DNA from: Candidatus Altimarinota bacterium
GTDB lineage: Bacteria; Patescibacteriota; Gracilibacteria; BD1-5; UBA6164
Length of the DNA: 11,950 bases
NCBI GenBank assembly: GCA_027066255.1
Contig: JAMOOA010000087.1
Span: forward strand, 1-11,950
Direction of reading: 5' to 3'
Shown here in pieces: positions 1 to 11,950 of the stretch (position 1 is the stretch's first letter; every line of letters begins with the position of its first letter). The position numbers and the translations under genes are program-made. The notes below the pieces were generated by a model. That model was not told where the DNA came from, searched no databases, and was given only the letters and a program-made list of their open reading frames with translations.

Positions 1-916
1 CTTTATTGTCTATTCCTTGCGTCTTTCCTTTTCTTTCTCACTTTCAACCCTCACTTCCATGTCCTTTCCTGTTTTTCATTTCTTCGCTACTCACCACACT
101 TGGAAGCTCTACTCCTTGTCCTTCAAGTCTCTCAGCAAGTTTATAAGCAAGTGATCCTCTGGTTTCTAAATCACTTTCTGATAAAAATTCATCTGTCTCA
201 ATATCTGTAGAGAAATCGTTTTTCTCAAGTGCTTTCAAAAATGCTCTGAGATGATTATATGAAGCACCTCCTATCTTTGTAAATACTATCTTGAAATCTT
301 CATTATCTGTGTTTTTTATAGCTTCTTCTATATCTTCTATATCAAGAACCTCTATCTGAACTCCTACTTCTAGAGCTTCCTTAAGTCATTTTTCTCCATA
401 AGCCTTGAGCTCCTCAAATGTAGATTGGAGTTCTCCATAATCTGTAGGAACATCTAAGTCATATCTATTTAAAAGAGTTTCTACTGCATCCATATGTTTT
501 TGTTCAGAGTTTGCAATCCTCTGGAAAGTTTCTTCCCCGTAAAGTTCATAGAGATAATTGTACGCATCTCTTGCGACCATTTCTTCACTGTATCCATATA
601 AAAGTATTTGTTCCTCTTCTTCTGTAAGGTCTGAAAGTGGAATACCTTCTAACATGTCTCCTTTGGTATCTCATCCCTGTCCTCTTTCAAATCACTTACT
701 CCCTTGACCTGCTTCACCATCTCTCAGACTTTGCATATATGTCTGCCTTTCTTCTTGATTCATAGATTGAACCTCTTCCCTTTGCTCTTGTGTAAGATTC
801 TTCCCCACTCATCTTCCTTGCCCATTCCCCTGTCCATAAGCAGAGACTGAGGTAATTGATACTGTTAATATACTCACTGTAGCTATAGTAGCTAGTAATA
901 CTTTGTTTGCTTTCAT
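1..916 (-). CDS. Exported ferritin-like DUF2202 protein, C-terminus cut by window edge
   Basis: At least 305 codons read from ATG at 916 and run off the left edge. Residues 1-26 form a signal peptide (MKANK basic start, hydrophobic core, VSA before the likely cut at Y27). Residues 27-86 are rich in Gly, Gln, Glu and Arg, with a GQGNGQGRG stretch and LTQEQREEV. Residues 90-235 match the DUF2202/ferritin-like AB2 type of four-helix bundle: carboxylates and histidines recur on the helices (EEMVARDAY, NSEQKHMDAVE, EVGVQIEVLDIED, ASYNHLRAFLKAL). Family knowledge suggests a diiron or metal-binding, possibly redox-protective role outside the membrane; the exact reaction is unknown. The tail after residue 280 is Gly/Lys-rich low complexity. 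At least six in-frame UGA codons are read as Gly. An upstream in-frame ATG exists (1006), but it would bury the signal peptide, so 916 is preferred. No Shine-Dalgarno site is visible. Confidence 0.85.
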
Positions 917-1069: not shown

Positions 1070-2350
1070 CTATTTTTTCACTATTCTATAATTTTTCTTT
1101 CCTTTTCTGATAAGAAGAAACTTTCCATCAATAAAATCTGCTGAGAAATCATAGTGCCCATCCTCTATCTTTTGTTCATTGATATGAAGCGCTCCGTTCT
1201 GGAGACTCTGACGAGCTGTTCCTCCAGATTGTTCCAGTCATGACTGGGTAAACATCCCAAAGAGGTTTTGATCTGTGTACTGTATCCCTCCTATTTCTTG
1301 GTAAAACAGCTCAAACTCTTCACTTGATAATCACTTGAGAAGTTCGAGTTTATCTTGGCTTCCAAAAAGAAATTCTGATATCTTCTCACTTACTTCAGCT
1401 TGAGGTTTCCCATGAACCATTTCAATAATAGTTTTTGCGAGGAACTTTTGACCCTGTCTTTTTTCTGGGACTTTTTCATGTTCCTGTACTACCTCAGATA
1501 TATCTTCATCTGAAAGAAAACTAAAGAGCTTGAGATATCTCTCTATGTCAGCATCAAGCGTGTTGATAAAGTATTGATATACTTCATAGGGAGAAGTTTT
1601 TGCTTCGTCGAGCCAGACAGCATTTCCTTCGGACTTCCCAAACTTCTTTCCATTAGCATCGACTATAAGTTTATTGGTTACCCCAAATACCTCTGCTCCA
1701 TCTTTTTTTGAGACAAGTTCAATACCTGCAAGGATTCCATCCCATTCATCACTTCCTCCTACTTCAAGAGTCACTCACTCATTTTTAAATAAATGATAGT
1801 AATCATATCCCATAATCAGCATATAACTGAACTCTGCGTAACTAATACTTTTATTTGGGTCGGTGATACGATCCTTTACTATACTTTTGTTTATCATCCA
1901 ATTTACCGTCATATATCGTCCTACTTCTCTGAGATAATCAAGGACATTCATATTTTTATGAAAATCGTAGTTATTCACTATTTCGTATTCCAGTTCTTTT
2001 CCAGTGATAGAAGCGACATTGTCTATCAGTCTTTTAAACTGTGCCTCTATCCCTGCCTGATTTCTTGCGAGGTCTTCTTCAGTAAGTATTGGTCTCTCAT
2101 CGTCTTTTCCACTCGGATTCCCAATAGTTGAGGTTGCTCCACCAACTAAGAGGTAGCATTTGTTTCCACGAAGCATGAAATGTACAGCCATCATAAGTGC
2201 AACAAAGTTCCCTATAGTCATAGAATTTGCACTACAGTCTACCCCAAAATAGAACTTCTCTCCTCATTTCTCAAATTGCTCAAATACCTTTTCATTAGTA
2301 AATTGATGAAGAAATCCTCTCTCTTCTAGGTCATTTCGTAAGTTTTTCAT
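1070..2350 (-). CDS. tyrS: Tyrosyl-tRNA synthetase with substituted active-site residues
   Basis: 426 aa, ending in TAG, the usual length for bacterial TyrRS. It should attach tyrosine to tRNA-Tyr in the cytoplasm. The class I catalytic domain occupies about residues 30-245, with LVGGATSTIGNPSGK, FSYMLIMGYD, VGGSDEW and the KMSKS-type loop KFGKS (236-240). An anticodon-binding region follows (TSPYEVYQYFINT, KRQGQKFLAK), then a C-terminal S4 domain (GGTARQSLQNGALHINEQKI; RKGKKNY near the end). N-terminal numbering matches Bacillus TyrRS. Y34, D38, K82, R86 and the equivalents of Y169 and D176 are kept. HIGH is TIGN, and T40, D78, Q173 and Q195 are replaced by Ser, Asn, Met and Glu. Four UGA codons are read as Gly, for example after EK at 28 and in NEG at 192. 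A paralog with altered specificity is possible, but the full domain set argues for a working enzyme. Confidence 0.93.
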
Positions 2351-2453: not shown

Positions 2454-3056
2454 ATGAAAAATCTAGACCTTTCAAAATTATTCGGATCCAAGTGTCGAGC
2501 AAAAATACTCGAGAGGTTTTTTTTGGAGCTAGAAGCTGGTGATGGGAAAGGATTTCATATGCGTGCGCTGTCACGTGACCTCGATGAACAAATAAACTCT
2601 ATCAAAAGAGAGTTGGATAATCTCAGTAACATGGGGATTCTCAAATATAGAGAAGAACTCAGAAAGAAGATTTTTTCAGTAAACACCAACTTTCTCTTCT
2701 GTGATGAGCTTAAAGATATTTTTCTCAAGTCTTACAACCCTATCGATGCTATCAGAAAGTTCTTCAAAACTCAGAATCTTCTTGAGGTCATTATCGTCAA
2801 CGAATCTGTAAAAAGAAAGCTGATGCAAGATGGAAAAAATATCCTCGATATATTCCTCATCGGAGAAATCGACAAAGATGAATTCAATGAATTTATGGGA
2901 ACTATCTTCTACAACAAGAAAGTGAAGTACGCTATCATTTCCACTGAAGATTTCTACAATAGACTTGAGTATGGAGATAAACTCATTCAAAATATTTTGA
3001 AAGAAAAAGGGAATGTCTATCTAAAAGATGCCCTACATGTGAAAGAGAAATTTTAA
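2454..3056 (+). CDS. Predicted winged-helix transcriptional regulator with nucleotidyltransferase-like tail
   Basis: 200 aa with no in-frame UGA. Residues 1-75 look like a winged helix: a helix around KCRAKILERFFLEL, then HMRALSRDLDEQINSIKREL as the likely helix-turn-helix, then a wing (LKYREELRKKIFSVN). Residues 108-195 (LEVIIVNESVKRKL, ILDIFLIGEID, KVKYAIISTEDFYNRLEYGD, then a Leu/Ile-rich helix) resemble the degenerate nucleotidyltransferase-like fold attached to such HTH domains in many archaeal and candidate-phyla proteins. The usual GSxxxG...DxD catalytic signature is absent, so it probably acts as a DNA-binding protein or ligand sensor rather than an enzyme. It is transcribed divergently from tyrS, so control of tyrS or of itself is possible but is only inference from position. 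The start is fixed by the -10 just upstream and the lack of earlier in-frame ATG. Confidence 0.75.
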   Translation: MKNLDLSKLFGSKCRAKILERFFLELEAGDGKGFHMRALSRDLDEQINSIKRELDNLSNMGILKYREELRKKIFSVNTNFLFCDELKDIFLKSYNPIDAIRKFFKTQNLLEVIIVNESVKRKLMQDGKNILDIFLIGEIDKDEFNEFMGTIFYNKKVKYAIISTEDFYNRLEYGDKLIQNILKEKGNVYLKDALHVKEKF

Positions 3057-3062
3057 GGTATC

Positions 3063-3368
3063 TTATTCCTTACTTTCAGACAACCCTAGTTCAGAAAGAA
3101 AATCACTATCTGACATCATCTTCTTAAGCATACATAGATTGTAAATATTTATACCTTGGTACTCTTCCATCTTACTGAGCTTTTTCAGGATATAAACAAT
3201 AACATAAGGTCTCTCTCAAAGTTTTTTCTCAGGAGAACTATCAGTAGATTCATAACTTGTTTTCAAATACTTTAAAATACTCTTCTTAACATTTTCCACA
3301 AGAAAGTCTGGAGCAAGAGAAAAGTTATTTTTTGAATTCGTAGAATGTCGAGAATTGCAAGAAACCAT
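3063..3368 (-). CDS. Hypothetical small protein, 101 aa
   Basis: I do not recognise a family. The frame runs from ATG at 3368 to TAA at 3063 and contains one UGA (in KKLGERPYV), so it is split under the standard code. The N-terminal 20 residues are Ser/Asn-rich. The rest is Lys-rich and mostly helical in look (DFLVENVKKSILKYLK, YVIVYILKKLSKMEEY, LCMLKKMMSD), ending acidic (SELGLSESKE). There is no signal peptide or clear transmembrane segment. It lies 90 nt downstream of tsaD on the same strand and is convergent with the HTH regulator, with only 6 nt between the two stop codons. The spacer upstream is almost pure A/T. Later starts at internal Met codons cannot be excluded. Confidence 0.55.
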
Positions 3369-3458: not shown

Positions 3459-4463
3459 TTACCACTTCTCAATTCAAACCGTTCCTATACGCTTCTCAAA
3501 CTGTCCATACTTCACTCGATAATACATTAGTATTCATATCATGGCAGCATTATCCATGCAGTATACTTTCTTTGTTGGACAAAAGAATGTGAATCCATTT
3601 TCTTTTGATGCTTCTGATATCCTGGCTCTTAAATCATCGTTAGCACTCACTCCCCCTGCGAGAAGGACTGTTTCTACTCATTTTTGTTTTGCTGCTTCTA
3701 TTATTTTATAACACAACACTTCGTTTACTGCTGCTTGAAATTCATAAGATATCTCTTGCTTATCTTGAAGAAAAAGTTTTCATCTCTTATCTACCTCACG
3801 CTTCACAGCACTCTTAAGTCCTGAGAAACTAAAATTGAACTGTGATTTATTGAGATAGGAACGAGGAAAGAGTTTTGAGGATACTCCCTTATACTCATCA
3901 GCTAACTTTGAAACTACAGGTCATCCAGGATACTCAAGCCCCATCATCTTTGCTACCTTATCAAAAGCCTCTCCTGCAGAATCATCTTGCGTTCCACCAA
4001 GCTTCTCCCTTGTCCACATATCTGACATATGATATATCTCATTATGTCCTCCAGAAACAGTGAGACACACTAGTGGGAATTCTATCTCAGATTCTTTTCG
4101 TTCTAAAAAATTAGAAAAGATATGCGCCTCGATATGATTGATAGAAAGAATCGGTATTTTTAAGCTGTGAGAAATCGTTGAAGCAACTGTTATCCCTGTC
4201 AATAAAGACGGAATAAGTCCGGGATGAGTGGTAACTCCGATATAATCTATGTCCTGAAGTGCAACATCCCCTTCATCTAAAACCTCTTGTAACACGTCAA
4301 AAATAGCATTCGCATGTTCACGACTCGCTACTTCCGGTACTACTCATCCAGTTTTATTATGTATCTTTATCTGGCTCGCTGTCGACATAGCAATTAGTCT
4401 CTCATCCTCAAAAAGAGCAATAGAGGTATCGTCACAGGATGTTTCAAATGCAAGGATTTTCAT
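3459..4463 (-). CDS. tsaD: tRNA N6-threonylcarbamoyladenosine transferase TsaD
   Basis: 334 aa, normal for the bacterial family (Gcp/YgjD/Kae1). It transfers the threonylcarbamoyl group from TC-AMP to A37 of ANN-decoding tRNAs, working with TsaB and TsaE, which are not in this window. The ASKHA fold is clear: MKILAFETSCDDTS at the N-terminus, HNKTGGVVPEVASREH (35-50), the metal-binding NHIEAH (H110, H114), TVSGGHNE (135-142), GEAFDKVAKMMGLEYPGGP (164-182), LLAGGVSANDDLR (267-279) and YCMDNAAMIG (301-310, D304 the metal/catalytic acid). The second Gly of both GGVVPE and YPGGP is encoded by UGA, as are several further glycines. It begins 4 nt after the hydrolase stop and has no Shine-Dalgarno site, so it is probably translated by coupling as the last gene of the long minus-strand operon. 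Confidence 0.96.
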
Positions 4464-4467
4464 ATGT

Positions 4468-5184
4468 TTATTTTTCTATAAATTCTAAAGTTCTTTCAAA
4501 TAGCTCTTTATACTTCCCTTCCTGAGTAAATCCATGATTTGCTCCTTTTATAATATAGGTCTCTATTTTGAGAATATCTGTTTGGATTCTTGTACTCAAG
4601 TGTCCTCAGTTTTCGGCATGAACAATAAACATATTTTTATAAGGAAAAGGAAAACTTTTAAGTGTATCAATATGATCTTCCTTACGATTTTGCACCATCT
4701 CTTCTGAGACAACAAGAGCCTTCCCATTTTTTGGGAGAAAGAGAAATACTTCTCACATTTTTATAAACGTCTTCTCTATTCCTGTGTTTTCAAAAGCAGG
4801 ATCCCAGAAAATACATTTTTTAATGTTTTGAGGAAGTCTCTTCATTCATATAACACTTGGTCATCCGAGACTATGAGAGATGAGAGAAATACTAGAGTAT
4901 GTTTGTGAAAGATGTTCACAAACATACTCTATATCTGTACTGTGAGTTGAAATACTACTTTCTGCAAGTTTTCTGTTTTTTTCGCCTCCATCATAAAGAT
5001 TAAAACGAAACACTTCGTATCATCTCTCAATAAAATATTCTTTTGCATTATAATAATGCGATTCATACATATCTCATGAGAGCCCATGAATAAATATAAG
5101 TAATTTCTGTGATTTTTTCTTCCAATTCAAAATCCCTTGTATTTCAAACCCATCTGATGTTGGAATATTTAAATGCTTTTCCAT
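4468..5184 (-). CDS. Alpha/beta hydrolase, serine hydrolase type
   Basis: 238 aa covering a complete small alpha/beta hydrolase domain. After the first strands comes the oxyanion-hole segment IFIHGLSGD (30-38). The nucleophile elbow is LISHSLGGPS (101-110), with S105 as the predicted nucleophile and Ser in place of the usual first Gly of GxSxG. The catalytic His is H217 in GANHGF, a typical ending. The acid is probably in VHAENGGHLS (188-197), where related enzymes have HGxxD; E191 is a candidate, which is unusual. No signal peptide is present, so it is cytoplasmic. It may be an esterase or peptidase-like enzyme; the substrate cannot be told. Six or more glycines are UGA-encoded, including ones in the HGLSG and SLGG motifs. 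It starts 2 nt after the pseudouridine synthase stop and ends 4 nt before tsaD. Confidence 0.85.
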
Positions 5185-5186
5185 AT

Positions 5187-6191
5187 TTATTCTTTTATTT
5201 TCTTAATAAGCTTTAGCATATCTGCTTTTAGCTTGGCTTCAAGAGATAGCTTCTTTTTTATTTGTGGATGAAAGAACTCTATCTTCCAGGCATGGAGCAT
5301 CTGACGAGTCAGTCAAAAATGCTTGAAAAAATAATGATTGAGTCATTTGTTTCCATAAGTGTTATCTCATAGAACAGGAGTTCCTATCGCTGCCATATGG
5401 ACTCGTATCTGATGCATACGACCTGTTTCTATAGTCACCTCAACCTCAGAAATAATCTGTTCTCCTTGAGGAAGTTGAAGAGTATGTTCTCTCAATACTT
5501 TGAAGTGCGTAATTGCTTCTTTTCATCACTCAGAAACTTGAACTTTGTTTTCATTGTGTGCGTTTTCAATACGCTTAAGTTTCTTAGTAATGCTTCCTGA
5601 GGATCGTGAAAATTTTCAAACACAAAGTGTAAAATACGTCTTTTGGATACTATTTTTCTTTCTAAAATCTTCTGAGAGTTTCATGAGGACATGTTTATCT
5701 TTCGCGATCATCACGATACCTGAAGTATCTCTGTCGATGCGATGAATAAGAGAAGGTTTAAAAGTAAGGCTTGAGTACTGGTCTCCCAGATAGTCTTGAG
5801 CCTGCTCTATGAGAGATACTTCTTGAGACTTGTGATCTGCTGGGTGAACATTTTGATTTGGGTTTTTATTTACAATCAAGAGCGCTTCATCCTCAAAAAT
5901 GATATCTGTAGGAAGTAGTTTCTCTGAGATAGTTGCTTTCTTTTGTAATGGAATTGTGGCTCTCAAATCTTCTATATCTGTGTCTGAAAGAAATACCTGA
6001 ACTTTTTCTCACAATTGAAGTTTATATTCATTATTCTTTTTTATTTTTTTCTCTTCTGTTGTAATAATTTTTATATTTCCCTTTCTATTAAGTTTATATA
6101 AAAACCCCAAAGTCGCGTTTGGAAAAAGTTTCTTAAGGAACTTATCAAGTCTCTGATCTGCGTCATTTGATGTAATAGAAAACTGTTGCAT
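5187..6191 (-). CDS. RluA-family pseudouridine synthase with S4 domain
   Basis: 334 aa. The N-terminal S4 RNA-binding domain is at about 8-62 (ADQRLDKFLKKLFPNA, LYKLNRKGNIKI). The catalytic domain follows, with IIFEDEALLIVNKNPNQNVHP (97-117), the signature HRIDRDTSG (150-158; D153 is the catalytic Asp), KTYFTLCVG and the C-terminal ETGRMHQIRVHMAAIGTPVLGD (255-276). The order matches RluC/RluD-type enzymes, which isomerise uridines in 23S rRNA; RluA-like tRNA targets are also possible, so I give no symbol. UGA encodes Gly at about eight places, including PVLGD and YGNKGL. I chose ATG at 6191 because MQQFSITSNDADQRLD gives the usual N-terminus; an upstream TTG at 6212 is in frame. It lies 36 nt after the PilX-like gene and 2 nt before the hydrolase, so it is probably co-transcribed. 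Confidence 0.93.
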
Positions 6192-6227
6192 AAAAGGATA
6201 ATCAAAAAACAAAGAAATATAGATTTT

Positions 6228-7109
6228 TTATTGAAAGACCGTAAAATCAAAAGCCTGATCAGTAGTAAGTTGTGGTACTCTCACAGTAAAGTTCTTTTGA
6301 AACCCATAAGATTTCCCCGCAATAGTAATATTGGTAAATCTTGTAGGGATAGAATCTCATCCTGTATCGATTTGATACTCTAAAAAAGGAATAGGTTTTG
6401 TTCCTTCCATAAACATATTTGCCAAAGGTGATATCCTCAATATACAATCATCTAAGAGACCAGTACAATTATTTAAATAGAAACTAGAAAAGACTCTACT
6501 TGTACCATCAAGCTCTAATCCTCCTCTTGCATTGAGAGTAAAGATTCCTCCATTTATATCAGTAGTCGTTATAAAATCTGTAAGATTCTCTGGAAAAAGA
6601 GTATTACTCGTACTAGAAAGTTGCCGTGTAAGGATTGTAGTAGTTGCATCTCCCTCAACTTGTTGGTCTGAAAAATTTCCATCTTCATCAAAATCGGGGA
6701 CACGAAAATTAAATCTCATATTTGACCAACCATCTTGAATCATTCCTTTTCAAACCAAAAGCTGCAAAGGTTTTCCATATGCTATGGTATTCCAATCGTT
6801 ATCAAAAGGACTGTCTCACTCGTCTACGTCAGGGATGAGTGTTCCATTTGCATCTATATCATAGCTATAGTCACTATCCCCTGAAAACACTTTTGTATCC
6901 TCGTCTCAGAGATTATTTTGTTTCATATACCAGAGTGCTTGCTCTACCGCGGAATTTGCGAGATAAAAAGCCTTGGTAGAATTTTCTAGTCATTTTACAT
7001 TTTGAGCATATGGAATAATAAAACTCAATAAAAAAAGAGACATCGTTGAGACAAGAATAATAATAATAAGTCCGAATATTAGAGAAAAACCTGTGTTTGT
7101 CTTTTTCAT
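6228..7109 (-). CDS. PilX/GspK-like minor prepilin
   Basis: 293 aa. The N-terminus MKKTNTG followed by FSLIFGLIIIILVSTMSLFL is a type III (prepilin) signal: basic leader, cleavage after G7, then a long hydrophobic helix that anchors the pilin and packs it in the fibre. The usual Glu at +5 is replaced by Phe, as in tip-type minor pilins such as GspK. AFYLANSAVEQAL (47-59) is typical of PilX-like proteins. The periplasmic part has Asp-rich loops (YDIDANG, PDVDEGD, FDEDGNFSD) that look able to bind calcium, and one likely disulfide pair (C215, C222). Five or so UGA codons encode Gly. The gene follows the PilW-like prepilin by 3 nt. PilX versus GspK/ComG assignment is uncertain; a minor component of a type IV pilus or pseudopilus is the safe reading. 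Confidence 0.75.
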
Positions 7110-7112
7110 AGA

Positions 7113-8237
7113 TTAATTGTATTTGGTAGTAAGATTTATAGTCGTATTTATTTGAACCTCAGGAACACTTCCTTTCAGTCTCAATCTTTCTTTCCAGGAA
7201 GGAAGAATAGTCATAGAAATACGTAAATATGGTGATAAAAATGTAGAATCTAGATTATCAGCCCATGCAAGATTACTATCTTTATTGGGGTAAGCAGAAA
7301 TCTTTATGTTCTTAACATTGACGTTATCCCCGAGAATAGTGAGCCAATAGTTTTCACTATCATCCGTATCTACTGCTGGAGTAAGATCTGCAACAATTGG
7401 TGAACTTGTCCCATATACTTCTGGATCATAAATCCACGTGTCTATAATTCCATCATTTTGTGTTACATCAATGATACTTGAAGAATGATCGTTTCACCAA
7501 TCTACTCCCTTAAGTCTCAAAAACTGTATCGTCCCAAAACATCCATCTCCAGTAGGAGTTCTTGGATTACTAAAGTCACATATTGCTGAAGCAATTTTAT
7601 TTGGGTCTTCCTGTACATACCATCTAAAAAATGTTCTTGAATCTCAAGACTTTCCTATGAGATATATCTCTGAAATTTCTCCATCTACTCAAAAAACACT
7701 AGGTCCATTTCCGAGGTAAAGGTCATCGTCATCACCCAAAATACTTCCATCTCCATCTTCGTCTCCTCCATCCCCATCAGCATCAGAGTTGTAATCAATA
7801 AACTGCTCTGGATATTGACCATATAAAAATTTATCCCCAAGAATACTAGCTCCTGCATCATTATGTGTTAAGATGCATCCATCATTTCACATAAGAGAAG
7901 TATTTCAGCTAATACAGTGAACTAAAGAATTTGCTCCATTCCCAAAGCTTGTAAGCGTGTCATAATGTCCAGAAAGATACGTGCTATTTCAGATATTTTT
8001 TCTCTGAAAATATTCTTCATAATCAAGAGTTCCCCCTGATTTCACTATTTCGAAAAACCTCTCTGAAAAATAAAATGCTTGTTGCTCAAGCTTCGTTTTC
8101 TCCATAAGTTTAATTCTCCCAATCCCAACAGCATTGACTGCGTAAAGTCAACTAATCGTTACCATAGAAACAATCGTAACTCCTAGGAGGATTTCAATGA
8201 GAGTAAATCATCCTGTATAGGATTTAATATTTTTCAT
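7113..8237 (-). CDS. PilW-like type IV prepilin with Asp-rich loop
   Basis: 374 aa. MKNIKSYTGG then FTLIEILLGVTIVSMVTIS is a textbook prepilin N-terminus: cleavage after G10, Phe at +1 and Glu at +5 (E15). G10, the residue before the cut, is itself encoded by UGA. The exported domain contains an acidic run at 148-172 with repeated DxDGDG-like units and two pairs of cysteines (C108/C121 and C220/C233) that could form disulfides. The domain is large compared with a major pilin, so a minor pilin such as PilW is likely; the precise class is inferred. It is translated ahead of the PilX-like gene with a 3-nt gap, as in common minor pilin clusters. About ten UGA codons are read as Gly. Pilus assembly ATPase, platform protein and prepilin peptidase are not in the window. 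Confidence 0.8.
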
Positions 8238-8242
8238 TTCTT

Positions 8243-8500
8243 TTATATTTTAAATAGGTACCTCCATAGATCCGAAAAAAAAGAAGTAAGTTTGAGTCCA
8301 GAAGGGTTTCTCCAAAAGTACTTTGGCCAATGACGAAAAAGAAAATCTAGAAAACAGAAAAAGAGATTATCTTTTTTTACCACTTCTTTTTTTCCAAAAA
8401 ATATCCCCATACTACGAGGAACACTCAAAAGAGAACTTATAACAAATATAATACTATCAAGAAAAGTATTTGATATTTTTTTCCTCTTTCTTCTAGCCAT
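8243..8500 (-). CDS. Hypothetical 85-aa basic, hydrophobic protein heading the pilin operon
   Basis: I do not recognise a family. It starts MARRKRKK, then a hydrophobic stretch (TFLDSIIFVISSLLSV, about 12-27) that could be one membrane helix with a positive N-terminus inside. A Phe/Trp-rich segment follows (FFCFLDFLFRHWPKYFWRNP) that may lie on the membrane. There is no prepilin cleavage site and no UGA codon. It ends 5 nt before the PilW-like start on the same strand, and the operon promoter candidate lies upstream. Position suggests a role with the pilins, but nothing in the sequence proves it. Its short length leaves some doubt that it is translated. Confidence 0.5.
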   Translation of the reverse strand: MARRKRKKISNTFLDSIIFVISSLLSVPRSMGIFFGKKEVVKKDNLFFCFLDFLFRHWPKYFWRNPSGLKLTSFFSDLWRYLFKI

Positions 8501-8655: not shown

Positions 8656-9246
8656 ATGTCTTATCAACAAAGAGCAAAATACAAAAACCTAAAAAGGTAT
8701 TTGTATAAAGTGCAAGAATCTTTGAGGTTTAAGACAGGGCACATCACTCATGCTGGGAAAATAGTACTTTTCTGAAGTGTTATTATTATATTATCTTTAT
8801 TTTTTACTTGGGTTGATTCAGGGAGTTTGATACATTCAGGAGGAGCATTTGCTCGAGTCTCTGGAAAGCCAGCTACCATGATACTTATCATTATAGGATT
8901 TATTTACTTTTCCCTCTTTTCGATAGAGAAGAAAGAAAAGATGAAGCTCATTTCAAACTTTTACTTCAAGGATTATACTAGTTGCATTCTTTGAGGGATT
9001 TTTATTATTATGCTCTGTATCAGTTCATTCAATTATATCTCATGACTACAAATGTTTGAAAGCGATATCTCCTCTGGAAAATGACCTATACTTTGTCTCT
9101 GTGGAGCAATTATCATGACAGTAGGTGGCTTTGTCATGAAAATGGAAAGATCTAAAAATATCACTGGAACCTTTGTACATGAACCAGGAATAAAAAACAC
9201 AGCCCCGTCCCAAGAAGAAAAGAATAACATGAAACTTCCCTTTTAA
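8656..9246 (+). CDS. Hypothetical four-helix membrane protein
   Basis: 196 aa of unknown family. A basic cytoplasmic N-terminus of about 35 residues (MSYQQRAKYKNLKRYLYK) is followed by four predicted membrane helices at about 36-53, 73-90, 110-128 and 144-162, and a polar C-terminal tail (SKNITGTFVHEPG to the end). The segment between helices 1 and 2 is short and Gly/Ser-rich. Five UGA codons are read as Gly, two of them inside helices (LFGSVIII, CILGGIF). Under the standard code the gene would be broken five times. It is divergent from the pilin operon and 73-82 nt upstream of the sigma-like gene. An AAGGAG lies 23 nt before the ATG, too far to be a normal ribosome binding site. Confidence 0.75.
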
Positions 9247-9319: not shown

Positions 9320-10387
9320 ATGTGACAAATGGTAACAGACACACTCACCAACGAACAAATTCGCTCTTACTTTGATAAAGTACTCAGCTCTCTTTCCGAA
9401 AAAGAAAGAACAGTTATAGAGAGAAGGATAGGTCTCACCGGAAATAGAGAAACACTCCAAAGTATTGGTAATTCCTTCTCTCCAAACATTACTAGAGAAA
9501 GAGTAAGACAGATAGAAGATGCTGGAATCAAGAAGGTCGGGAGGATTATCAAAGCAACTGAGCTCTCTCAAATACAAGAAAAAGGAAAAGAAATACTTTC
9601 TCTTCATGGAGGAGTCCTTACAAGAGATAAACTCGTAGGAGCGCTTATCAGTGAACTTCATCTTTCAAAAGATGTAAACGCCTTTATTCTCGAAGTAATC
9701 ATACAATCTGACTTTGATATACTTAAATCAAAACCAAGACTTGGAACTCAGACGTATTTCTACCTCCCAAACATCACGAGAAAACACATAGATGCCGTTT
9801 ATAAGGAGTCTCTCAAAATGCTCAGAAAAAAGAAAGATGTTATGGAACAGTCTGAACTCTATTCAGCTATCCTAAATCTCCTCTCAAAAGAACTTGGAAG
9901 CCTTGGTGCTCCATTTGTAGATAGTGTACTCGATGTATTTGATGATATCGTCAAATGAGAAGAAACACTTATCGGTCTCACAAGATGGAAAATACTTAAT
10001 CCAAAAACGCTCAAAGATAAGTCTATCTATGTAATGAAAAAGGAGAAAGTTCCTATGCACTTTATAGATATTTCTAATAAAATATCAGAATATCTCGGAG
10101 AAACAGTAAAAGTAAACACTATCCACAATGAGCTCATTAGAAATGAAGAATTTATTCTTATAGGAAGAGGAATATACGCATTAAAAGAATGGGGTTTCAA
10201 ACCTGGAACAGTTCTTGATGTGATTGTTGATGTTCTCAAAAAAGAAGGAGATGCAATGAGTACTGAAAATATCATCAAAAAAGTTCTCAAAGTAAGAACC
10301 GTAAAAAGAACGACTATCTATATGAACCTTCAAAATAAGAAAGTTATAGAAAGAGTAGGACGTAACTTCTACAAACTCAAAGACTAA
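9320..10387 (+). CDS. Sigma-70 region 4 plus HARE-HTH DNA-binding protein
   Basis: 355 aa from ATG at 9320 (Met-Gly-Gln-Met, the second codon UGA) or 352 aa from ATG at 9329; the choice is open. Near the N-terminus LSSLSEKERTVIERRIGLTG and ITRERVRQIEDAGIKKV form a sigma-70 region 4, the helix-turn-helix that reads -35 boxes. Regions 2 and 3 are absent, so it is not a complete sigma factor. The middle is a helical, poorly defined segment. Residues about 239-352 (VPMHFIDISNKISEYLGETV, TIHNELIRNEEFILIGRGIYAL, then a second HTH-like unit) match the HARE-HTH domain, known from RNA polymerase delta and restriction/chromatin proteins. A UGA Gly joins the two main fragments at 9956. Likely an RNA polymerase accessory or regulatory factor. 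A strong promoter precedes it and a strong hairpin follows. Confidence 0.85.
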
Positions 10388-10537: not shown

Positions 10538-11149
10538 ATGAAAATTCTCGTATTTGATACTGAAACAACTGGTTTCATAAATAAGAAAGAGTTCAACCTC
10601 GAAAAACAGCCTCGAATTGTTCAATTTGCTGGGATTATGTGAGAAATGAGTAAAAATGGGAACTTCGAAGAATCTGGAAGAATAAATGTTCTTATAAATC
10701 CTGGTGTTCCTATTCCCTATGGAGCTTCCCAAGTTCATAATATCTATGATGTTGATGTAAAAGAGGCTCCCCGTATAGAGACCTCTATCGATGAATTCCT
10801 CAAAGTAATAAACGAAGCTGATGCTATTATTGGACACAATATAGAATATGATGAGGATATGATAAAGTTGGAACTAAGGAGACTTCAAAGAGTACATGAG
10901 TACCAGCCTAAACAGGTTCTTTGTACGATGAAATCAACAGTGGATTTTTGTCAATTGCAAGGAAACGGAAAGAGATTCAAGTATCCAAAGCTTTGAGAAC
11001 TCCACAAGAAACTCTTTGATGAATACTTCATTGGAGCACATGATGCGATGGTTGATGTGGAAGCAACTCTCAGATGTTTTTTGGAACTTGAAAAAAAATG
11101 AATTCTCCAGCTTCAAAAAATCGAAAAATCCGTCATGAGTTTATTTTAA
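10538..11149 (+). CDS. DnaQ-like 3'-5' exonuclease (DEDDh)
   Basis: 203 aa, a single RNase-H-fold exonuclease domain. The Exo I motif is FDTETTG (D7, E9), Exo II is GHNIEYDED (99-107, with N101 and D105), and Exo III is HDAMVDVEAT (H168, D173), so all DEDDh metal ligands and the catalytic His are present. Such enzymes act as the proofreading epsilon subunit of DNA polymerase III or as free exonucleases in repair and RNA turnover. There is no polymerase-binding tail I can name, so dnaQ is not assigned. Three UGA codons encode Gly (residues 35, 153, 188); under the standard code only the middle of the gene would be seen. It is followed by the zinc-ribbon gene and recA on the same strand, and lies between the two palindromic repeats. 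Confidence 0.92.
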
Positions 11150-11272: not shown

Positions 11273-11500
11273 ATGTCCGATTATTCAGACCTCATAAACG
11301 TTGAAGATCTCTGAGATAAAAGAGAAGATTTTGATCCAGAAAGAGGAGATGTCTCTTTTTATTGCAAAGATTGCGAGTGTATTGTTGAAACAGAAAGAAA
11401 AAATCCACGTGGATATAAGTTCACTTGTAAAAAATGTTCAGGGAAAAATATAGCTATAGGAACTGAAAAGTGACTCAAAACTAACTATAGGATTAAATAA
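11273..11500 (+). CDS. Small zinc-ribbon protein, 75 aa
   Basis: The gene becomes visible only with UGA as Gly (residues 14 and 67). An acidic N-terminus (SDYSDLINVEDLGDKREDF) is followed by YCKDC (C31, C34; C36 also nearby) and FTCKKC (C52, C55), two CxxC knuckles 17 residues apart, as in a zinc ribbon. It ends basic (KGLKTNYRIK). Such mini-ribbons often bind nucleic acid or RNA polymerase, but no specific family is recognised. It sits 123 nt after the exonuclease and 118 nt before recA. Start chosen because the -10 lies just ahead and no other ATG in frame is nearby. Confidence 0.75.
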
Positions 11501-11618: not shown

Positions 11619-11950
11619 ATGGATAAGAAAGCAGCACTTCAAAATGCTCTCGATATGATCGAAAAACAATACGGAAAAGGTTCTATTATGAAACTTGGAG
11701 ATGATGAAAGAGGAAAATCAATCCCTACATTTCCTTCTGGTTCTCTTTCACTTGATATAGCTCTATGAGGATGATATGCAAAAGGAAGAATCGTAGAGAT
11801 TTACGGTCCAGAATCATCAGGAAAAACCACTCTTACTCTCCATGCAATTGCTGAAGTTCAAAAAGCAGGAGGAACAGCAGCTTTCATCGATGCTGAACAT
11901 GCACTTGACCCAAGCTATGCTGAGAAAGTTGGGGTAAATACTAAAGAACT
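11619..11950 (+). CDS. recA: RecA recombinase, N-terminal part (runs off right edge)
   Basis: 110 complete codons are visible, about a third of a normal RecA. RecA forms filaments on single-stranded DNA, drives strand exchange and triggers SOS-type responses. The N-terminal helix region reads [20 protein letters not shown], followed by the ATPase core with Walker [10 protein letters not shown] and the [18 protein letters not shown] segment, which carries the catalytic-glutamate region. The conserved LDIALGxGG loop here reads [19 protein letters not shown], with two of the three glycines coded by UGA (11766 and 11772); this is one of the best proofs of the genetic code. The start is the first ATG in frame, matching the usual MDKxKAL-type N-terminus. 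No Shine-Dalgarno site is present. Confidence 0.97.

Follow-up and report, generated by a model that had tools for sequence, protein, structure and literature searches.

Glycine at UGA and probably tryptophan at CGG in a family of uncultured Gracilibacteria

UGA is, with near certainty, a glycine codon in the uncultured Gracilibacterium from which the DNA analysed here derives, and a reading of CGG as probable tryptophan, with CGA as arginine, is well supported for its family by alignments and tRNA genes. The window, as we call the whole stretch of 11,950 nt, is an entire contig (C87) of a 984 kb assembly in 210 contigs, 77.5% complete (G000 below; its genus-mate is G001). In the model that we hold with high confidence, a dedicated tRNA-Gly(UCA) would read UGA as an ordinary glycine codon, release factor 2 (RF2) would have been lost, with RF1 ending proteins at UAA and UAG, a further conserved tRNA, tRNA(CCG), whose end bases are of the tryptophan type, would decode CGG as tryptophan, and CGA would remain arginine; we infer that the three codons are decoded in this way in the cell. 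The UGA part is not new, because it has already been published for Gracilibacteria: proteomics showed glycine at UGA (PMC4032931), and this code has been called well established (PMC10746230).

Translated with table 25, the window contains 15 genes with 3635 codons and 56 in-frame UGA, which are spread over 13 of these genes; on both strands together, table 11 yields 30 ORFs of at least 60 aa. A DUF2202 (ferritin-like) gene, open at the left end (2..916, minus strand; six in-frame UGA), is followed by the genes for tyrosyl-tRNA synthetase (TyrRS; 1070..2350, minus; four UGA, stop UAG), for an unnamed protein of 200 aa without NCBIfam match (2454..3056, plus; no UGA) and for another unnamed protein (3063..3368, minus; one UGA). 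Next on the minus strand come TsaD (3459..4463; six UGA), an alpha/beta hydrolase-like gene (DUF676; 4468..5184; six), a RluD-type pseudouridine synthase (5187..6212; seven), a gene whose N-terminus we read as pilin-like (6228..7109; five UGA and the sole CGG of the window), a prepilin-like gene (7113..8237; eight) with GFTLIE, which we take to be a prepilin motif, and an unnamed gene of 85 aa (8243..8500; no UGA). Neither of the two pilin-related genes has a match in Pfam or NCBIfam. The plus strand continues with an unnamed gene that looks to us like one for a membrane protein (8656..9246; four UGA), a Sigma70 region 4/HARE-HTH gene (9320..10387; two), a gene of the RNase T/exonuclease family (10538..11149; three), a small Cys-rich gene (11273..11500; two) and recA, open at the right end (11619..11950), with UGA at codons 50 and 52 (11766-11768 and 11772-11774).

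The first-pass annotation of the window had proposed glycine at UGA from a handful of conserved motifs, and the codons lie where it placed them: recA reads LDIAL-UGA-G-UGA on the glycines of LDIALGGG (within 11763-11777), TsaD has UGA for the second Gly of GGVVPE (4344-4346) and of YPGGP (3921-3923), the pseudouridine synthase reads PVL-UGA-D (5367-5369), and the hydrolase HGLS-UGA (5074-5076) and SLG-UGA (4861-4863). Its statement that UGA is avoided as a stop agrees with the 13 complete genes, 12 of which end in UAA and one in UAG, the other two crossing the window ends, and its link to Gracilibacteria was correct; its figure of about 25 fragments under the standard code can be set beside the 30 ORFs of table 11. 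Comparison with E. coli K-12, for which 16 ORFs of G000 had a match (two of them window genes, so that the columns are not the 56 UGA of the window), placed glycine at 37 of 56 UGA columns, next to 114 of 178 GGA columns. Tryptophan, the residue that the annotation had named as speaking against its reading, was found at none of the 56. One of the 16 ORFs (L172, 9327-9713) matches the E. coli frame opposite rplL; the UGA, GGA and CGA counts are the same without it. In other genomes, UGA columns had glycine in 95/153 (G001), 287/487 (G018), 49/58 (G003) and 14/23 (G041) cases, with tryptophan at one of the 58 and one of the 23, and the signal was weaker in the UGA-poor G045 (13/29).

TsaD can be read site by site. 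Codons 40 (4344-4346) and 181 (3921-3923) face glycine in all 45 standard-code homologues and codon 262 in 23 of the 45, the other three UGAs falling on sites where glycine is not conserved: codon 228 (A, G and P, seven each), codon 310 (A 39, G 6) and codon 330 (41 gaps). Both of these fully conserved sites, codons 40 and 181, hold UGA or GGN in every one of 32 rows from Gracilibacteria, and 243 of the 322 UGA codons in well-filled columns (358 in all) face a glycine-majority column; the set leaves out L041 and L045, with TAA or TAG within the match, and L065, with an interrupted gene. In this last case, an ALOHA Gracilibacterium, the two parts of TsaD that match share one frame but lie about 465 nt apart (L065:1570-2036), which may reflect an in-frame insert. 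Elsewhere in the window, both recA UGAs are Gly in E. coli RecA, E. coli has Gly at four of the seven RluD UGAs, and the four UGAs of TyrRS lie on variable sites, with Gly in 9 of 20 cells and no Trp (read by eye in five alignments of 27 matched sequences).

The same data bear on a reading of UGA as tryptophan, as in the mycoplasmas (code 4), a use of the codon known in Mycoplasmatales, Entomoplasmatales and insect endosymbionts (PMC8629427). Besides the absence of tryptophan from the 56 columns, a separate tRNA-Trp(CCA) accompanies the tRNA-Gly(UCA) described below, and best-family Pfam scores were lower or equal with Trp for seven of the eight window proteins that had a match among ten scanned. 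On replacing Gly by Trp at UGA, the score fell from 275.1 to 260.7 for TsaD, 159.1 to 151.6 for RecA, 29.1 to 20.2 for DUF676 and 102.9 to 99.3 for RluD, by at most 1 bit for DUF2202 and the catalytic domain of TyrRS and by 2.7 for the C-terminal domain of this enzyme; that of the sigma-like gene was identical, and the exonuclease was the exception, with 69.8 for Trp versus 68.4 for Gly (+1.4 bits). We regard code 4 as vanishingly improbable here.

The apparatus expected for such a code was found where the first-pass annotation had suggested looking, in the rest of the genome. On contig C198 of G000, ARAGORN called a UCA-anticodon tRNA of 79 nt, which it labels 'SeC' when run with the standard code and Gly with code 25; its end bases (G1:C72, C2:G71, G3:C70, U73) match the glycine criteria stated in PMC8629427. 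A similar tRNA-Gly(UCA) is present in 53 of the 60 genomes searched, G000 counted; Rfam tRNA counts are incomplete, the G001 copy having first been missed and then found by a later search. NCBIfam identifies the single RF-1-domain protein of G000 as RF1 (487 bits against a cut-off of 400), and this protein has PET at what we take to be the place of the PxT motif. No RF2 was found in the 77.5% complete G000 assembly, and prfB scored above the cut-off in one of the 60 genomes, compared with 10 of 14 control genomes; the other 59 of the 60 have none above it, in line with the loss of RF2 which the annotation anticipated. Gracilibacteria without prfB have been published (PMC6851277). The sole prfB above the cut-off (G016:C153:10080-11129, L029) has no in-frame UGA and comes from a 2.7 Mb bin; we suspect that it perhaps sits on a foreign contig.

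The 'SeC' label is what could be said for UGA remaining a stop codon, with the genes being pseudogenes, misassembled or expressed through readthrough or selenocysteine. Against this stand the UGA-bearing 13 of 15 genes, a mean coverage by ORFs of at least 130 codons of 85% with table 25 versus 25% with table 11 (11 stretches of G000, the window included), the exchange of UGA with GGN at conserved TsaD glycines in relatives, the lack of a detected RF2 and the 79-nt length and glycine identity bases of the UCA tRNA; we assign this possibility practically no probability.

The share of UGA among glycine codons ranges across the order from 8% to 74% and declines roughly as GC content rises: 8% in G058 (GC 0.53), 11% in G045 and G049, 25% in G000 (GC 0.35), 67% in G003 (GC 0.26) and 74% in G041 (GC 0.30), estimated from one to eleven stretches per genome.

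CGG and CGA were tested here because PMC8629427 (2021) reports both codons as tryptophan in Absconditabacteria and, in one sentence, predicts CGG as tryptophan for some Gracilibacteria and as arginine for others. Tryptophan at CGG together with arginine at CGA is foreshadowed by that sentence; a literature search, with most subscription papers outside its scope, found no other account of CGG as tryptophan in Gracilibacteria. CGG is rare in G000 (5.2 per 10,000 codons). Only one CGG column each in G000 and G001 and two in G018 could be aligned to E. coli, too few for that comparison alone, and relatives were therefore compared instead. The sole CGG of the window, codon 162 of the gene at 6228..7109 (6624..6626, minus strand), lies on a conserved tryptophan, being TGG within conserved WQLSS in all three alignable relatives (G001, L035 and L037); two further weak alignment pieces, both from L047, end short of the codon. 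Stretches of G000, G001 and G018 contained 79 CGG codons in 64 ORFs, after leaving out 14 CGG-bearing ORFs of these genomes that overlap rRNA or tRNA, and 16 of the codons had homologues. At the 14 sites with an unambiguous majority residue this was Trp in six cases (Obg counted in two genomes) and Arg in none; the other eight were Gly (two), Met, Val, Tyr, Lys, Cys and His (one each), seven of them resting on one relative each, and some may be spurious ORFs. G000 itself has CGG at tryptophan in two sites, Obg residue 34 and the window codon, with G001 in addition; homologues exist for two more of its CGG sites, which face Gly and Met, in one relative each. Control codons, sampled in about every second to fourth ORF (TGG, CGA, CGT and AGG), gave Arg at 57/79, 100/176 and 9/19 CGT sites and Trp at 24/31, 66/89 and 35/48 TGG sites in G000, G001 and G018, respectively. 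An apparent CGG site at arginine in G018, seen also in G003, matched a frame of E. coli that lies opposite 23S rRNA and was removed.

Obg allowed one such site to be followed through three families. Residue 34, read by tblastn, is encoded by CGG in 25 and by TGG in 19 of the 44 genomes read among 48 of the window's family (G025, G032, G064 and G066 gave no match at threshold), and by nothing else; in two sister families it is Tyr in 12 and Phe in 8 of the 20 read among 24 (G049 and G057 had short matches only; G043 and G051 are also missing from the count). The residue is thus aromatic in 64 of 64 genomes, with CGG counted as Trp in 25; it is Asp in E. coli and in G083, a genome of another family. 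A reading by longest open frame was wrong for G035, probably for G030, and, to judge from misaligned columns, for G038 and G058. CGG occupies the site in 14 of the 20 genera of the family. Six genomes, however, belong to a genus (g13) in which residue 34 is TGG throughout (6/6) and CGG keeps different company: of the three CGG codons of its Obg genes, one falls in a column where Lys is in the majority, one (G065, codon 380) in a column where each of the other 44 rows has Arg, and one in an Ile/Arg column. Outside g13, residue 34 is CGG in 25 of 38 genomes and UGG in the other 13, never AGA or CGU. DnaE, sampled in the best 30 of the 48 family genomes, shows the same division, the three CGG codons outside g13 all lying in TGG columns and the nine within g13 in columns of Arg (six), Lys (two) and Pro (one). 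Taken over both proteins, CGG coincides with a Trp column in 28 of 28 cases outside g13 versus 0 of 12 within it (Fisher p = 1.8e-10), a value that overstates the evidence because 25 of the 28 codons represent one site in related genomes and are therefore not independent.

These distributions bear on plain code 25, in which UGA is glycine, all else is standard and CGG is arginine. This code has been published for Gracilibacteria (PMC4032931, PMC6851277), and CGG is indeed Arg-like in g13 (six of nine DnaE columns with Arg majority; Obg 380 of G065) and in the outgroup G045, whose CGG columns face Arg in 20 of 57 and Trp in 1 of 57 comparisons with E. coli. Outside g13, however, the sites occupied by CGG are aromatic ones (25/38 genomes at Obg 34, 3/3 codons in DnaE, 3/3 relatives at the window codon), Arg is the majority at none of the 14 informative sites, and we consider plain code 25 decidedly unlikely for the window's genome. 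The annotation had named code 25 outright; the UGA half of that label stands, and the label is incomplete because CGG is very probably tryptophan here in place of the arginine of code 25.

The codon at Obg residue 34 has a further peculiarity. Residue 22 of the same protein is also tryptophan, and it is TGG in all 44 family genomes (38/38 outside g13). That the rare CGG is kept at residue 34 in 25 of the 38 genomes outside g13, though residue 22 is always UGG, would suggest selection on the recoded codon. In DnaE, whose five Trp columns comprise 100 codons, CGG accounts for three, compared with those 25 of 38, and the codons flanking Trp34 vary synonymously (L280-L309, L403-L416; in G000, L171 16145-17521). 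A wider proposal can be put together from these points: most genera of the family would use an unlisted code with UGA as glycine, CGG as tryptophan and CGA as arginine, g13 would use CGG as arginine, so that the meaning of CGG shifts within one family, and CGG at Obg Trp34 would be under selection, with Obg synthesis being set, for example, by the supply of tRNA(CCG). As a conjunction we put this forward tentatively, rating it somewhat below an even chance.

A candidate adaptor for CGG is encoded in G001, which has a tRNA with anticodon CCG. A covariance model built from 21 such tRNAs (stems 96% paired, 73 double changes) gave 29 matches of 90-103 bits in 60 genomes, one of them (G032) not called by ARAGORN, the next match scoring 54 bits; among the best matches from sister families, two that were inspected are tRNA-Arg(UCG), at 52-54 bits. 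The tRNA is present in 27 of 36 family genomes and occurs twice in G054, which belongs to a sister family. Among 192 genomes of the class, the matches at threshold outside the family were one tRNA(CCG), in G083, and three tRNA-Trp(CCA); the G083 gene has A1-U72 and G73, and the Obg of this genome contains 36 UGA. By its end bases the tRNA would fit tryptophan: A1-U72 with G73 occurs in all 21 aligned sequences and in seven more that were read, and among 29 distinct tRNAs of G001 it is otherwise confined to tRNA-Trp(CCA), the three tRNA-Arg genes of G000 having G1-U72 and A73. Charging by tryptophanyl-tRNA synthetase is accordingly what the end bases would predict. The D-arm resembles that of tRNA-Arg, including tRNA-Arg(GCG), with A at the usual place of A20 and with C35. 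A20 and C35 are identity features for arginine, and with such features kept, charging is not readable from sequence alone.

Occurrence of the tRNA can be set beside the codon at Obg residue 34. It was found in 17 of the 20 genomes searched that have CGG there, the three without it (G000, G002 and G028) being at most 90% complete, and in 9 of the 14 searched that have TGG, the five without it being G013, G027 and G034 of g13, G017 and G021, the last of which has a 26-nt piece of the gene at a contig end. The tRNA was found in none of the four g13 genomes searched (G013, G027, G034 and G066). The covariance model did not find it in the 77.5% complete G000, whose genome presumably carries it as genus-mate G001 does. 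Several structural features of tRNA(CCG) are unusual. The D-loop is without the usual GG and the T-loop has TGC for TTC in 20 of 21 sequences, G024 having TTC and also differing in the D-loop, and a non-standard pair adjoins the anticodon loop (columns 32 and 40) in 12 of 21. In two genera the last 21 nt are exactly repeated about 100-150 nt downstream, like the attachment site of a mobile element (tRNA and repeat at G001:C17:7757-7833 and 7982-8002, L310 and L333; G012:C8:44795-44871 and 44965-44985).

The mixed features of this tRNA invite the view that CGG is ambiguous, yielding a mixture of Trp and Arg, a view which overlaps the model preferred here. The D-arm like that of tRNA-Arg(GCG), the A1-U72 and G73 like those of tRNA-Trp, and the rarity of CGG are in keeping with it; no CGG site with Arg majority in G000, G001 or G018, and an aromatic residue 34 of Obg in all 64 genomes of three families (CGG taken as Trp in 25), are not, and we rate ambiguity as unlikely.

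CGA looks like an arginine codon in the family, as judged from the columns in which it stands. The residue most often in the majority at CGA sites is Arg, both in G000 (19/36) and in G001 (20/46), followed by Lys with eight in each, and in G018 Arg is the majority at 2 of 10 sites; Trp is not among the majority residues listed for the three genomes. Against E. coli, CGA columns face Arg in 8 of 17 cases in G001, with Trp not listed, and in G000 Arg in two and Trp in one of six. In the window, CGA codon 270 of RluD falls on the Arg of HQIRVH and a CGA of the exonuclease on PRIVQF, both of which we take to be known motifs. In a non-exhaustive search of the family loci examined, G000 and G001 included, no tRNA reading CGA by normal pairing was found, the Rfam counts being incomplete; among the loci examined, tRNA-Arg(UCG) was seen in sister families only. 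The code of Absconditabacteria, in which UGA is glycine and both CGA and CGG are tryptophan, was published for this sister group (PMC8629427) and would account for the behaviour of CGG as tryptophan here. We reject it on account of the Arg-like behaviour of CGA, seen in HQIRVH and PRIVQF and in the counts for G000 and G001, although those for G018 are low, and judge it highly improbable for the window's family.

The likely code, as predicted from alignments and tRNA genes, thus has UGA as glycine, CGG as tryptophan and CGA as arginine and is neither code 25 nor that of Absconditabacteria; to our knowledge, no NCBI table has this combination. Annotation of the window's family with code 25 puts arginine where tryptophan is meant, and the family offers a test case for the change of a sense codon, in which both the tRNA and what CGG stands for vary between genera, the neighbouring CGA being apparently unchanged. 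With code 25, as described for SR1 and Gracilibacteria, the family shares UGA as glycine, tRNA-Gly(UCA), a release factor set in which RF1 is kept and RF2 was not found, and the stops UAA and UAG, but CGG, arginine there, would very probably be tryptophan here. With the Absconditabacteria code (Shulgina and Eddy 2021) it shares glycine at UGA and tryptophan at CGG, but CGA, tryptophan there, is Arg-like here, most of its sites in G000 and G001 being columns of Arg or Lys. CGG is also tryptophan in Anaerococcus and in the RFN20 clade of Bacilli (PMC8629427), where the codon is likewise rare and GC content low; these belong to an unrelated phylum, however, and the accessible part of that paper does not describe UGA as glycine for them.
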